The notes under the pieces: model-generated
What the model was told of the DNA's origin: nothing
Databases searched by the model: none
Seen by the model: the letters and a program-made list of their open reading frames with translations, nothing else
Part shown: piece after piece, positions 23,280-42,053 of the stretch
Numbering within the stretch: the stretch's first letter is position 1
Layout: every line of letters starts with the position of its first letter
Position numbers and translations under genes: made by a program
Origin: Saccharothrix espanaensis DSM 44229
GTDB taxonomy: Bacteria > Actinomycetota > Actinomycetes > Mycobacteriales > Pseudonocardiaceae
Direction of reading: 5' to 3'
Assembly: GCF_000328705.1 (NCBI RefSeq)
Contig: NC_019673.1
Span: 7,823,501 to 7,887,500, forward strand
DNA length: 64,000 nt

Positions 23280-24341
23280 TCAGGATTCGAGTTGTTCGTT
23301 GAGCTTGGTGCGCAGGCGCAGGACCGCACGGGTGTGGAGCTGACAGACCCGCGATTCGGTGACGCCGAGGACCTTGCCGATCTCGGCGAGGGTCAGGTTC
23401 TCGAAGTAGTAGAGCGTGACGACCACGCGGTCACGTTCGGCGAGTTGCGCGATGGAGTCGGCGAGCTGGCGACGGCTGTCCTGGTCGACCAGGGTCGCGA
23501 CCGGGTCTTCCGCGCCCTCGTCCGGCAGCGACTCGGCCAGCGACGCTCCCGCGCCGCCGACGCTGCGCCCGGCCGCGATCAGCTCGTCCAGGGCCACGAC
23601 GCTGGTCAGTTGGAGCTGCGCGTACAGCTCGCGCAGCTCGGCCAGGCCGATCTTGAGCTCGGCGGCGAGTTCGCGGTCGGTCGGCGTGCGCTGGAGCCGG
23701 GCGCCGAGCCGTTCCAACGCCCGCTCGACGTCGCGGGCGCGGCTGCGAACCGACCTCGGAACCCAGTCCTGCGAGCGGAGGTCGTCGAGGATCGCGCCCC
23801 GGATCCGCTGCATCGCGTAGGTCTCGAACTTCAGCCCACGTTCAGGTTCGAACTTCTCGATGGCGTCGACCAGACCGAAGATGCCGGACTGGATCAGGTC
23901 CGCCACGTCGACGTGCGCCGGCAACCCGGTACCGACCCGGCCCGCGACGTACTTGACCAACGGCGCGTAGTGCAGCACGAGCCGGTCGCGCAGGACCTGC
24001 TCGTGCGACTGGCCGTACGTGTGCCAGAGCGCGATGATCCCGGCTTCCACGTCGTCGGCCGTACGCGACTCCGACGCCGGGTGCGCGGGCCGACCCGCAG
24101 GCGGCGGGATCACGGCAGGCACCTCAACGGCGGTCACGTCCGCAGCGCCCCCTTCAGCGGCAGGCCCGTCAGCAACACGCACGTCGGCGACAGCCGCGTC
24201 GCCGGCGGGCGTTTCGGTTGCGGGCGTATCGGTTGCGGGCGTATCGGTTGCGGGCGCACGGGACATGGACCGCTCGGCACCTGCACCGCTCACGGCAGGC
24301 ATCGACGCGGCGGGCGCAGCGACCGAGGGCTCTCCCGGCAC
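23280..24341 (-). CDS. whiG: WhiG/FliA-type RNA polymerase sigma factor
   Basis: A sigma-28 family factor. Region 2 (about 110-180) contains [20 protein letters not shown] and the -10 recognition helix [20 protein letters not shown]. Regions 3 and 4 follow, the latter with [20 protein letters not shown]. In Streptomyces, WhiG commits aerial hyphae to sporulation. The family is normally about 260-280 residues; here some 95 Ala/Pro/Thr-rich residues precede region 2, including the pentamer TDTPA repeated. The true start is uncertain: GTG at 24341, ATG at 24302 or 24266, or the ATG at 24928 if the repeat tract at 24424-24683 were in frame. Last gene of the yraN-comM-dprA-xerC operon. Confidence 0.92.
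24203..24255. repeat. 15-bp tandem repeat inside whiG
   Basis: Three and a half copies of a 15-bp unit (CGGTTGCGGGCGTAT on the plus strand) encode the repeated pentamer ATDTP in the N-terminal extension of the sigma factor. Being a multiple of three it keeps the reading frame. Confidence 0.8.
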
Positions 24342-24928
24342 CTCGGCAGCGGGCGGAACTGCGGCGGGGGCGTCCCCGGCGTGCGTGGGCGCGGCAGGCG
24401 GAGCAGCCGGCGGCGAGGCCGAGCTGGGCGAGGCTGGGCTGGGCGAGGCTGGGCTGGGCGAGGCTGGGCTGGGCGAGGCTGGGCGAGGCTGGGCTGGGCG
24501 AGGCTGGGCTGGGCGAGGCTGGGCTGGGCGAGGCTGGGCTGGGCGAGGCTGGGCTGGGCGAGGCTGGGCTGGGCGAGGCTGGGCTGGGCGAGGCTGGGCT
24601 GGGCGAGGCTGGGCTGGGCGAGGCTGGGCTGGGCGAGGCTGGGCGAGGCTGGGCTGGGCGAGGCTGGGCTGGGCGAGGCTGGGCTGGGCGTCGCGGGGGT
24701 GGGTGCGGTGGGCGTCACGGTGTGGCCGTTGGTGTGCGGGGCCTCGGCGGCAGGTCCGGGGTGCGGGTCCTCGTCGGCGACGTGGTGACCGTTCGTCCCG
24801 GTCGGGGCGTGCGCAACCGAGGGCTGCGCCTCCGACGAGGCCCCGACGCGCGCGGCGGAAGGAGAGGTCACGGTTGCGGTCCGCGAACCTCCCCCTGCGA
24901 CGTCAGGAACGGGGGTGGGTTCGGTCAT
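24290..24928 (-). CDS. Out-of-frame 5' part of the whiG gene (Pro/Ala-rich N-terminal segment)
   Basis: An ATG at 24928, overlapping the xerC end by 26 bases and preceded by AAGGCG, opens a frame beginning [14 protein letters not shown]. It runs into the tandem repeat as ASPSP units, changes to SLAQP and then RPAQP units because of two short repeat copies, and ends in a different frame from the sigma domain. On both sides of the repeat the coding-like frame is the ASPSP one, so this is best read as the original N-terminus of the sigma factor, detached by repeat length. Whether it is translated alone is unknown. Confidence 0.45.
24424..24683. repeat. 15-bp minisatellite: 16 full units plus two 10-bp units
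   Basis: The unit CTGGGCGAGGCTGGG is repeated almost without variation: four copies, a 10-bp copy (24484-24493), ten copies, another 10-bp copy (24644-24653) and two copies, 260 bp in all. All three frames are free of stops. 260 is not a multiple of three, so the tract shifts the frame between the two halves of the whiG coding region. Confidence 0.95.
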
Positions 24929-25880
24929 GGATCGCCTTCAGCCGTTCGACGGTGACGTGTGTGTAGAGCTGAGTGGTTGCGAGCGTAGCGTGACCGAGAA
25001 GCTCTTGGACGGTACGCAGGTCCGCTCCCCCTTCCAACAGGTGCGTGGCCGCGGTGTGCCGCAGGCCGTGCGGCCCGATGTCGGCTGTTTCGGGTACCGC
25101 ACCCACTACATCGTGGACAACCCTCCTGGCGGTACGCGGGTCCAACCTCCCGCCGCGCGCACCGACGAACAGCGCGTGTTGTGAACGGTCGCTGACCAGG
25201 GACGATCGACCGTGTTCCACCCAGCGCCGTACTGCCCGTTCGGCCGGTACGCCGAATGGCACGGTGCGTTCGCGCCTACCCTTGCCCAGAACCCGGATCA
25301 CCCTTTGGGAGTAGTCGACGTCGCCGAGGTCGAGACCGCACAGCTCGGCGACCCGAACACCTGTCGCGTACAGCAACTCCACCACGGCTTGGTCACGCAG
25401 CGCAACCGGCTCGCCGGCTTCCGCGGATACTTCCGCGACCGACATCGCGGCCTTCGCCTGGTCCGCCCGCAACACTGCGGGCAGCGTCCGGTGCGGTCGG
25501 GGCGCGACCAGACGGGGCCCGGGGTCGTCGGCGAGCAGGCCGGTCCGCGCCGCCCAGGCGGTGAAGGTCCGGGCGGCGGCCGTGCGCCGGGCGAGCGTGG
25601 TCCGGCTCGCACCCGCACCGTGCTGGGCCGCCAGCCACGAGCGCAGCCCGGCGAGGTCGATCGCCTCCACGGTGGCGTCACCCGTCGTGCCGCCGGCCAG
25701 GTGGACCAGCAGGGAGACCGCGTCGGCCAGGTAGGCGCGGACGGTGTGCGGCGAGAGCGAGCGCTCCATCGCGAGGTGGCGCTGGTAGTCGTCCAAGGCC
25801 GTCGAGACGTCGCCGGGCAGCTCGCGACGCAGGCCGACGAGGTCGACACGACGAGTCCGAGCGGGCGGCGGCGGGGACAT
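24903..25880 (-). CDS. xerC: Tyrosine recombinase XerC
   Basis: XerC/D-type recombinases resolve chromosome dimers at dif. The 325-residue product has the SAM-like core-binding domain (about 25-115) and a catalytic domain with the full set: Arg176, Lys200, His271, Arg274 ([11 protein letters not shown]), His297 and the nucleophile Tyr306 (TTQLYTHV). It lies between dprA and whiG, the position known in other actinobacteria. AGGGGCT precedes the ATG. The rest of the Xer system is outside the window. Confidence 0.94.
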
Positions 25881-27059: not shown

Positions 27060-27993
27060 GCCACACCGCCGCAGGTGCGAGCCCGCACGCCGTCCGCCAC
27101 GGGCGGGCCGACTGGCGCGGACAACGACGAGCACCCCGGCACTGTTCGGTCCAGCGACCGCACCGGGTCCGGAGGTGCAGCAGCCAGGCCTGGGTGATCA
27201 GCTCGCACAGCCACGCCTTGCCCCGGCGGAACGGGGCAGCGAGGAAGGCGGCCCGATCGGTGGTGCGGTCGGTGAGGCAGTCAGCGGCCCGGTCGGTGGA
27301 GCAGGTGGCGATGCGGTCAGCGGGGCGGTCGGTGGAGCGGTTGGCGGGGCGGTCGGTTGGGTGGGTGGTGGGGCGGGTGGTCGTGCACTGGGTGGCGGGG
27401 GTGGGCGTGGGCGTGGTGCAGGGCTTTGGGCGTGCGGCGTTGCGGCAGCCCGGTGGAACGTCCCGGTGCGCGTCGCGACGGGTGCTCGGGGGTGGGCTTG
27501 TCGAGGTGGCGCGGGACTCGCATGACGGAGCCGAACGCCCGCGTGGACCCGGTGCGGCGCACGACGGCATCGGTGCGGTTGCCGGTGAGTTCGCGTCGGG
27601 ACCTGGTCGACTCGGAGTCGTGGCGCGCAGACCCGGGTAGGTACAGGTCGCCGGGGTGGTGGGTGGGCACTCGGTCGTGCGTTCGACTTCAGCCTGCTGG
27701 GCGAGTGAACCGGCCACCGCGGACCACGGCGAACCGGTGGGGTGGGCGGCCGAGGCCGAGGTGTCCGGCCCGGTGAGGAACACCTGGTCCACGACCAGGT
27801 GGACCGGAGTTCCCGGCGGCGTCAGGGGATTCGTCAGGTCTGCTCCGGCGGCGTCGGGGCTCGCCGCCTCCGACCGGGTGGCGTCCCGGTCGGTCGTCTC
27901 CGGGCCTTCGGTCAGGGAGCGGGGGAAGTCGGGTGGGAGTGCGGTGGGATTCGGGGTGGTGGCCGGGAGTTCGAGGGGCGGGAGTTCGGTCAC
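27052..27993 (-). CDS. Unrecognised Pro/Thr/Arg-rich ORF between comM and dprA, frame preference shifts twice
   Basis: A 313-codon frame starts with GTG in a GTGA overlap with the 75-aa ORF and ends overlapping dprA. I recognise no domain. Codon third positions suggest that coding switches frame: 27993 to about 27680 in this frame (HLVVDQVFLTGPD), about 27670 to 27317 in the next (VPTHHPGDLYLPGSARHDSE, then SVMRVPRHLDKP), and the last 260 bp in this frame again (GKAWLCELITQAWLLHLRTR). It may be a gene broken by two compensating shifts, two overlapping short genes, or a decaying stretch. A TDRPADR-type repeat occurs near 27250-27350. Confidence 0.35.
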   Translation of the reverse strand: MTELPPLELPATTPNPTALPPDFPRSLTEGPETTDRDATRSEAASPDAAGADLTNPLTPPGTPVHLVVDQVFLTGPDTSASAAHPTGSPWSAVAGSLAQQAEVERTTECPPTTPATCTYPGLRATTPSRPGPDANSPATAPMPSCAAPGPRGRSAPSCESRATSTSPPPSTRRDAHRDVPPGCRNAARPKPCTTPTPTPATQCTTTRPTTHPTDRPANRSTDRPADRIATCSTDRAADCLTDRTTDRAAFLAAPFRRGKAWLCELITQAWLLHLRTRCGRWTEQCRGARRCPRQSARPWRTACGLAPAAVWRE

Positions 27994-41626: not shown

Positions 41627-41759
41627 GCGTCGTGTCATCCCCGTACGGCCTGCGCGCAGCGAACCGCGCTTGGTCTGGACGTGCAAGCACGCCCTTCGCT
41701 TGCACGTCCAGACCAAGGGTGGTTGTCTCCGACCAGGCCGTACGGGGATGACACGACGC
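41627..41759. repeat. 133-bp two-stage palindrome
   Basis: Two nested perfect inverted repeats share one centre. The inner arms of 20 bp (41669-41688 and 41698-41717; arm starts CTTGGTCTGGACGTGC) have a nine-base loop. The outer arms of 26 bp (41627-41652 and 41734-41759) start GCGTCGTGTCATCCCC. Between inner and outer arms lie 16 unpaired bases on each side. As RNA it would form a long hairpin with one symmetrical interior loop; as DNA it could extrude a cruciform. Confidence 0.93.
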
Positions 41760-41924
41760 CCACCCGCTCACTCATCCTTGGTGGCCTGCCCGTCCGGCGA
41801 GGACGCTTTTGGCTTTTGCCGACGGCGTGCGCTTCACCAGCACCTCTGAAGGCTTGTGGCGTGGCCTCCGGCCCCCGACACCATCATCCCATGCACCACC
41901 GACAAACGCGCTAACGCTGAGTCC

Positions 41925-42053
41925 CCACCCCGCGACCCACCCCCGCGACCCACCCCCGCGACCCACCCCCGCGGTCCACCCCCGCGACCCCACCGCGCGA
42001 GCCACCCCGCGACCCCACCCTGCGAGCCACCCTGCGACCCACTCTGGGAGCCC
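41925..42053. repeat. Degenerate C-rich 11-13 bp tandem repeat
   Basis: About ten copies of a unit near CCCCCGCGACCCA follow each other, exact at first and drifting to CTGCGAGCCACC later. No protein-like frame runs through it. Probably a slippage product. Confidence 0.75.

Follow-up and report, generated by a model that had tools for sequence, protein, structure and literature searches.

The window, by which we mean the whole 64,000-nucleotide stretch of the Saccharothrix espanaensis DSM 44229 chromosome that was analyzed, carries a whiG gene in which a 260-bp tandem repeat tract lies between a conserved start codon and an intact, conserved sigma core. Compared with a regular array, the tract lacks two copies of CCCAG, and the net shift parts the ATG at 24928 from the core. 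Quite possibly, and this is the interpretation that we tentatively prefer, the strain carries a recent, genuine frame-breaking allele in a single whiG gene with a hypervariable linker, so that WhiG output would be lost or lowered.

Results

The whiG locus

On the minus strand, the gene order is a dprA-like gene, xerC and whiG, followed beyond a plus-strand peptidase-like ORF by rpsB, tsf and pyrH; the names of the neighbors other than xerC and whiG were assigned by eye from ORF translations. The best-scoring model for the xerC product was NCBIfam XerC, at 309.9 bits and under its cut-off of 335.15. The sigma core scored 270 bits against the FliA/WhiG family model TIGR02479 (NCBIfam FliA_WhiG), above the cut-off of 189.6, and its best-scoring model was the WhiG equivalog NF004935, at 331 just under the cut-off of 343. 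Its best match in the PDB was 6pfj_A (residues 6-251 of 256, E 3e-86), an entry named RNA polymerase sigma factor that we take to be the Streptomyces RsiG-WhiG complex. The assignment to a WhiG-type sigma factor made in the initial annotation is borne out by the family model and by this match. The gene thus resembles Streptomyces WhiG in having a FliA/WhiG-family core matched over nearly its whole length, and differs from it and from the rest of the family in that its linker carries a frame-breaking minisatellite. The features of the locus are as follows.

24903..25880 (-): xerC, tyrosine recombinase (open frame; NCBIfam XerC), with its 3' end overlapping the first whiG codons
24868..24998 (-): xerC/whiG junction, single copy, synonymous sites strongly conserved (4-fold-site comparison)
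24926..24928 (-): conserved whiG start codon ATG, 26 bp before the xerC end
24689..24928 (-): N-terminal WhiG segment ahead of the tract, ATG frame (codon-usage score)
24429..24688 (-): frame-breaking 15-bp tandem repeat tract, 260 bp
24634..24643 (-): first short (10-bp) unit in the direction of the gene, exact position register-dependent
24474..24483 (-): second short (10-bp) unit in the direction of the gene, exact position register-dependent
24290..24928 (-): frame actually opened by ATG 24928, 212 codons; its TGA overlaps GTG 24293 of the sigma frame
24051..24428 (-): remainder of the variable WhiG linker, read in the sigma frame; candidate internal starts at 24341, 24302, 24293 and 24266
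24205..24256 (-): second 15-bp repeat in the linker, in-frame, 3.5 copies, PATDT (TRF and translation)
23280..24050 (-): WhiG sigma core with stop codon (NCBIfam FliA_WhiG; PDB 6pfj_A; dN/dS)

The repeat tract and the frames that cross it

Read along the minus strand from 24688 to 24429, the tract splits completely into three units of 15 bp, one of 10 bp, ten of 15 bp, one of 10 bp and three of 15 bp. The sixteen 15-bp units share one sequence, CCCAG-CCCAG-CCTCG, and removal of one CCCAG from it gives the 10-bp units. The initial annotation had counted the same 16 and two units and placed them at 24424-24683, which describes these 260 bp in another rotation of the register. Each short unit is separated from unique flanking sequence by about 45-55 bp. 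The tract has the top TRF score (474) among 24 rows in the window, and a 21-base repeat pattern searched with up to 2 mismatches matched the 9.36-Mb genome 19 times, 18 of them inside the tract and the single outside match with 2 mismatches. A chance repeat was ruled out on the basis of this score and of the presence of the array at one genomic place only.

Translated from ATG 24928, the start of the tract reads in the ASPSP phase; the phase then changes to SLAQP and finally to Pro/Ala/Gln/Arg, and the frame closes after 212 codons at 24292-24290. The sigma frame, which upstream stays open as far as a stop at 24905, exits the tract reading ASPSP, and the tract is free of stop codons in the two frames read. 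No single uninterrupted frame joins the conserved start to the core: 24928 and 24341 are 587 bp apart (2 mod 3), and the two 10-bp units place start and core in different frames. In these respects the frame translation agrees with what had been proposed earlier, including the shared ASPSP phase at entry and exit. Steps of 15 bp are frame-neutral, and only gain or loss of 10-bp units shifts the frame. The earlier proposal that the number of short units sets the frame holds for a change from two to zero or from two to three, either of which restores it; loss of one short unit alone does not.

Over 24902-24689, ahead of the tract, the codon-usage score favors the ATG frame (-5.1 vs -24.7 and -40.7 for the other two). 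Past the tract, codon usage and GC3 are not decisive overall in placing the frame: the scores up to 24341 are -8.2 for the sigma frame, -4.9 for the ATG frame and -5.7 for the third, which is against the sigma frame there, and those up to 24106 are -19.1 for the sigma frame vs -24.3 and -37.6. Pairing with the anti-Shine-Dalgarno sequence reaches -4.7 kcal/mol at 24928, only slightly above background (median -3.7, 10th percentile -7.9), and is better at 24266 (-6.2 kcal/mol); it is absent at 24341, 24302 and 24293 (0.8, 1.3 and 0.0 kcal/mol). The internal starts named in the initial annotation, 24341, 24302 and 24266, are indeed in the sigma frame, but the list was incomplete, since GTG 24293 is also present. 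Linkers beginning at 24302, 24293 and 24266 would comprise 84, 81 and 72 residues.

The ancestral frame in relatives

Protein similarity yielded 80 loci, and another 30 came from searching 25 genomes of the genus, among them the window's own; two of these 110 (L037 and L038) proved to be other sigma factors and were dropped, leaving 108 with a usable WhiG core. An ATG lies at the junction, 26 or 29 bp ahead of the xerC end, in 101 of the 108, the window's copy included, and the remaining seven (L088, L090, L092-L096) have another type of junction. The only one of the 101 in which this ATG and the sigma core are out of frame is the window's own copy (L009); the remaining 100 have both in one frame. 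As judged by this comparison, the ancestral gene product is the long form that begins at ATG 24928, since none of the 100 other loci with the ATG has it out of frame with the core; the suggestion that the long N-terminus belongs to a real gene product is upheld to this extent.

Removal of 17 duplicates reduced the 100 in-frame loci to 83 distinct sequences, among which we found 41 linker lengths, ranging from 43 to 303 residues with a median of 79. Tandem repeats are found in other linkers too, where the period ranges from 6 to 63 bp and is most often 15 bp; a few TRF periods (8, 11, 13 and 17) are not multiples of three, yet the frames hold. From these sequences the whiG linker appears free to change in length, and S. 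espanaensis is the only case seen in which the linker breaks the frame. The tract itself has no counterpart: in the comparison among relatives that the initial annotation had called for, the exact unit, in any rotation, occurred in none of the 83 distinct linkers. We also considered that the true start is internal and the tract merely upstream DNA, but this is disfavored by the xerC-overlapping ATG, which is in frame in 100 of 100 loci despite the 41 linker lengths. Conservation of the N-terminal peptide was dropped as proof of translation, because synonymous sites there are conserved as well; the argument from frame remains.

This synonymous conservation extends across the xerC/whiG junction. 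When the window is compared with 25 close loci, 0-9% of the 4-fold sites in the junction differ, vs 42% in the whiG core, in non-independent comparisons restricted to codons alike in their first two bases. The differences number 7/197 at the xerC end, 0/124 in the overlap (where two frames constrain the DNA), 29/333 in whiG codons 8-22, 2/169 in codons 23-35 and 685/1628 in the core. Further upstream xerC is intermediate and uneven (430/1667 and 860/2302, with single blocks down to 0.04). From about -66 to +24 around the ATG, most sites have the same base in at least 90% of 81 distinct family sequences. The junction block has no second copy in the genome (next best match 20 bp, E 0.16), no match in Rfam at E<=1, no unusual fold (z-score 0.28), and no match to a sigma-70-type promoter or a terminator. 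Our guess is that it holds a conserved whiG promoter or a regulator site inside xerC.

Constraint on the WhiG core

The core of the window's gene gave dN/dS values of 0.022-0.080 (median 0.047) against nine relatives, two of the 11 chosen (L019 and L031) having been left out of the table. The values among those nine relatives were 0.033-0.131 (median 0.055), and those of the window fall within or below them. By this measure the core is under strong purifying selection, either still or until very recently, so the frame break should be young or spurious. The relaxed constraint of a pseudogene is not seen, and if the gene is inactive it has become so only very recently. A second WhiG in the S. 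espanaensis genome was not found at E<=1e-45, where there was one match only.

Broken whiG genes in other strains

Breaks were counted in the 83 distinct sequences, a set that leaves out eight of the 108 loci (the window's copy and the seven with the other junction). The whiG core is broken in six of the 83, vs none of 80 for the adjacent xerC, whose open frame spans at least 313 codons in all 80 loci where it could be measured (three of the 83 had no measurable xerC open frame and were dropped). Three of the cores are frameshifted (L032, -1 nt; L033, +1 nt; L085, +1 nt near the C-terminus) and three carry nonsense changes (L070, CAG to TAG; L071 and L072, CGA to TGA at one shared codon), and they belong to genomes of the genus Saccharothrix, Lentzea and Umezawaea. 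L071 and L072 come from two Lentzea species, share the change at core codon 109 (counted from 0) and are otherwise intact in whiG; the core closest to L071 among 12 others compared, L063, is intact. Fisher's test for breakage of whiG against xerC gave p = 0.029, or 0.014 with the window counted, a statistic that is weaker than it looks because the codon change shared by L071 and L072 may be one event. Sequencing mistakes may account for some of the 1-nt indels.

A wider draw of 140 genomes of the family had a whiG match in 136 (none in G035, G072, G125 and G129). Three of the 136 are broken: G126 (= L070), G110 (= L085) and G071 (= L129), a count based on inspection of five odd-looking matches and leaving out the divergent matches of one genus (g5). 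Apparent premature stops in G120 and G085 were rejected, as full-length matches to residue 253 or 254 are stop-free and the stops terminal. For xerC, six of the 140 genomes had no match and none of the 134 matches, taken as they stood, had an internal stop; many of these begin at residue 47-78 and one (G157) ends early (292 of 312).

Because six of 83 cores are broken vs none of 80 xerC frames, loss of whiG seems, on these genomes and with a modest statistical signal, to be tolerated in sequenced strains of the group. The recurrence suggests that in culture whiG can be dispensed with, or that selection even acts against it.

As side observations, the breaks in L032 (= G023), L033 (= G008), L085, L070 and L129 may be recurrent whiG loss in cultures or assembly errors. 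In each of the assemblies of G009 (L023/L034) and Saccharothrix luteola (L051/L052), the whiG locus occurs twice, on two contigs and with no difference over the part compared, probably through duplicated assembly or contamination.

Discussion

A possible recent frame-breaking allele

Part of our best explanation is that the tract is a young (CCCAG CCCAG CCTCG)n minisatellite gained in the fast-evolving, Pro/Ala-rich N-terminal linker of WhiG. Replication slippage in it would have made the frame-breaking allele, recently and in the sequenced clone. Ribosomes starting at ATG 24928 would then terminate at 24290, having made a repeat peptide of 212 residues, and a shortened WhiG would be made in reduced amounts from internal starts, either by reinitiation at 24302 or 24293 or from 24266; with the peptide ending at 24290 and WhiG only shortened and reduced, output in the strain would be lost or lowered. 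Some N-terminally shortened WhiG, with a linker of 72 to 84 residues, is likely made, because 24266 pairs at -6.2 kcal/mol and the overlap of TGA 24290 with GTG 24293 allows reinitiation. The form from 24266 may keep function, because its 72-residue linker is within the normal family range.

The ancestral frame, the identity of the units, the single WhiG, the recurrent core breaks elsewhere, the nearness of both short units to unique flank and the lack of anti-Shine-Dalgarno pairing at 24341, 24302 and 24293 all speak for a broken allele. Against it stand the absence of any decay in the core, reads about as long as the tract, such that an unseen third short unit would leave the gene intact, and the wider draw, where only three of 136 are broken and two of these are already among the 83. 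Spontaneous whiG loss-of-function mutants of Streptomyces have a white phenotype. They resemble the S. espanaensis allele in combining an otherwise intact core with a recent disabling mutation, and differ in the kind of lesion, which here would be slippage of a linker repeat and not a 1-nt indel or nonsense change in the core. Should the allele be real, the type strain of a saccharomicin producer lacks a normal WhiG, which bears on its development; it also adds to several whiG breaks in sequenced strains and counsels caution when development is deduced from collection strains.

Possible sequencing or assembly error

A somewhat unlikely alternative is that the break was introduced by sequencing or assembly, that the true number of short units (none or three) keeps the frame, and that the strain makes an intact WhiG, about 540-550 residues long, that carries ASPSP repeats in its linker. 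As published, the chromosome of DSM 44229T (9,360,653 bp in a single contig) was assembled from 454 reads (1,536,941 reads, 404,849,780 bp) into 352 contigs, whose gaps were closed via fosmid and PCR walking (PMC3469384). The mean read length computed from these published totals (PMC3469384) is 263 bp, against a tract that is 260 bp long and very GC-rich, and both these reads and the way the contigs were closed leave room for error. The purifying selection on the core and the in-frame ATG of all 100 relatives' loci also fit such an error. Because the mean read length is close to that of the tract, the number of middle units is uncertain; full units are irrelevant to the frame, and miscounts of 15 bp would leave it unchanged. 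Errors in 454 data are typically homopolymer miscounts, which the 5-bp losses seen here do not resemble. Each short unit should moreover be anchored by reads, because it lies so near unique flank, and many reads should cover it. An extra short unit hidden in the middle of the tract is the plausible form that the artefact could take.

The proposed length-controlled switch

The initial annotation had proposed that the tract is a length-controlled switch. Here, slippage or recombination in the tract would toggle the whiG frame between cells and make commitment to sporulation bistable, which we regard as unlikely. The perfect repeats offer many slippage partners, and the tract is stop-free in the two frames read. 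We modeled every one-step deletion or duplication that perfect repeats sharing at least 20 bp could mediate: among 82 distinct products, 28 restored the frame (5 deletions and 23 duplications), 26 left it unchanged and 28 moved to the third frame. These modeled products imply that the tract can mutate back to an open gene, and that part of the proposal stands. In the model, frame is restored by gains of 15k+10 bp or losses of 15k+20 bp and never by a 15-bp step. The single-unit step is thus frame-neutral, and the smallest restoring step is either a 10-bp duplication with only 15 bp of homology or one of 25 bp with at least 20. The conservation of a switch is not demonstrable, because no relative's linker among the 83 has the exact unit, and the one S. 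espanaensis sequence analyzed gives a single allele. In these modeled terms the architecture of the tract is not that of an efficient switch, and a frame-neutral 15-bp step fits tolerance at the protein level better than it fits an evolved switch. A plain loss-of-function allele needs no switch, because whiG is broken by unrelated small mutations in six of 83 relatives.

The units of phase-variable repeats are usually not divisible by three, which the 15-bp unit is. Of the hallmarks of a contingency gene, a frame-changing coding repeat is present in the model, and a unit not divisible by three and a tract conserved in relatives (83 distinct linkers) are lacking. The likeness to phase-variable genes such as mod of Haemophilus influenzae, which varies by slipped-strand mispairing in a coding repeat (PMC3711429), is that a repeat in the ORF decides the frame by its length. 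The difference is that only changes of 10-bp units do so in whiG, of which a single allele is seen, and that most known phase-variable cases, as that account has it, are surface-exposed proteins (PMC3711429), in contrast to a developmental regulator. If the tract does switch, a master regulator of actinomycete development would be turned on and off by a repeat, an arrangement of which we found no report in the literature searched, mostly open-access papers; the matches listed for phase variation in Streptomyces included none on whiG, as judged by title or the start of the abstract. That slippage in the whiG linker serves as heritable bet-hedging, by which a clonal mycelium is split into sporulation-competent and sporulation-incompetent cells, we consider quite unlikely.

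A stable two-piece gene, in which a 212-codon leader ends at TGA 24290 and reinitiation at 24302 or 24293 gives a shorter functional WhiG, is improbable: the start/stop overlap GTGA at 24293-24290 and linkers of 84 and 81 residues near the family median would suit it, but Shine-Dalgarno pairing is absent at both starts, the family N-terminus would be missing, and the overlap is weak evidence because at this frame offset any TGA after A or G gives it, which would be expected about half the time.

Other repeats in the window

Elsewhere in the window, a 13-bp tandem repeat with 9.4 copies, CCCACCCCCGCGA, lies at 41924-42042 and is apparently intergenic. Just before it, at about 41635-41765, is a long imperfect inverted repeat with arms of about 60 bp (by eye), possibly a terminator or a small mobile repeat. 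Tandem repeats of 12, 36 and 24 bp occur at 27248-27418, upstream of the dprA-like gene.
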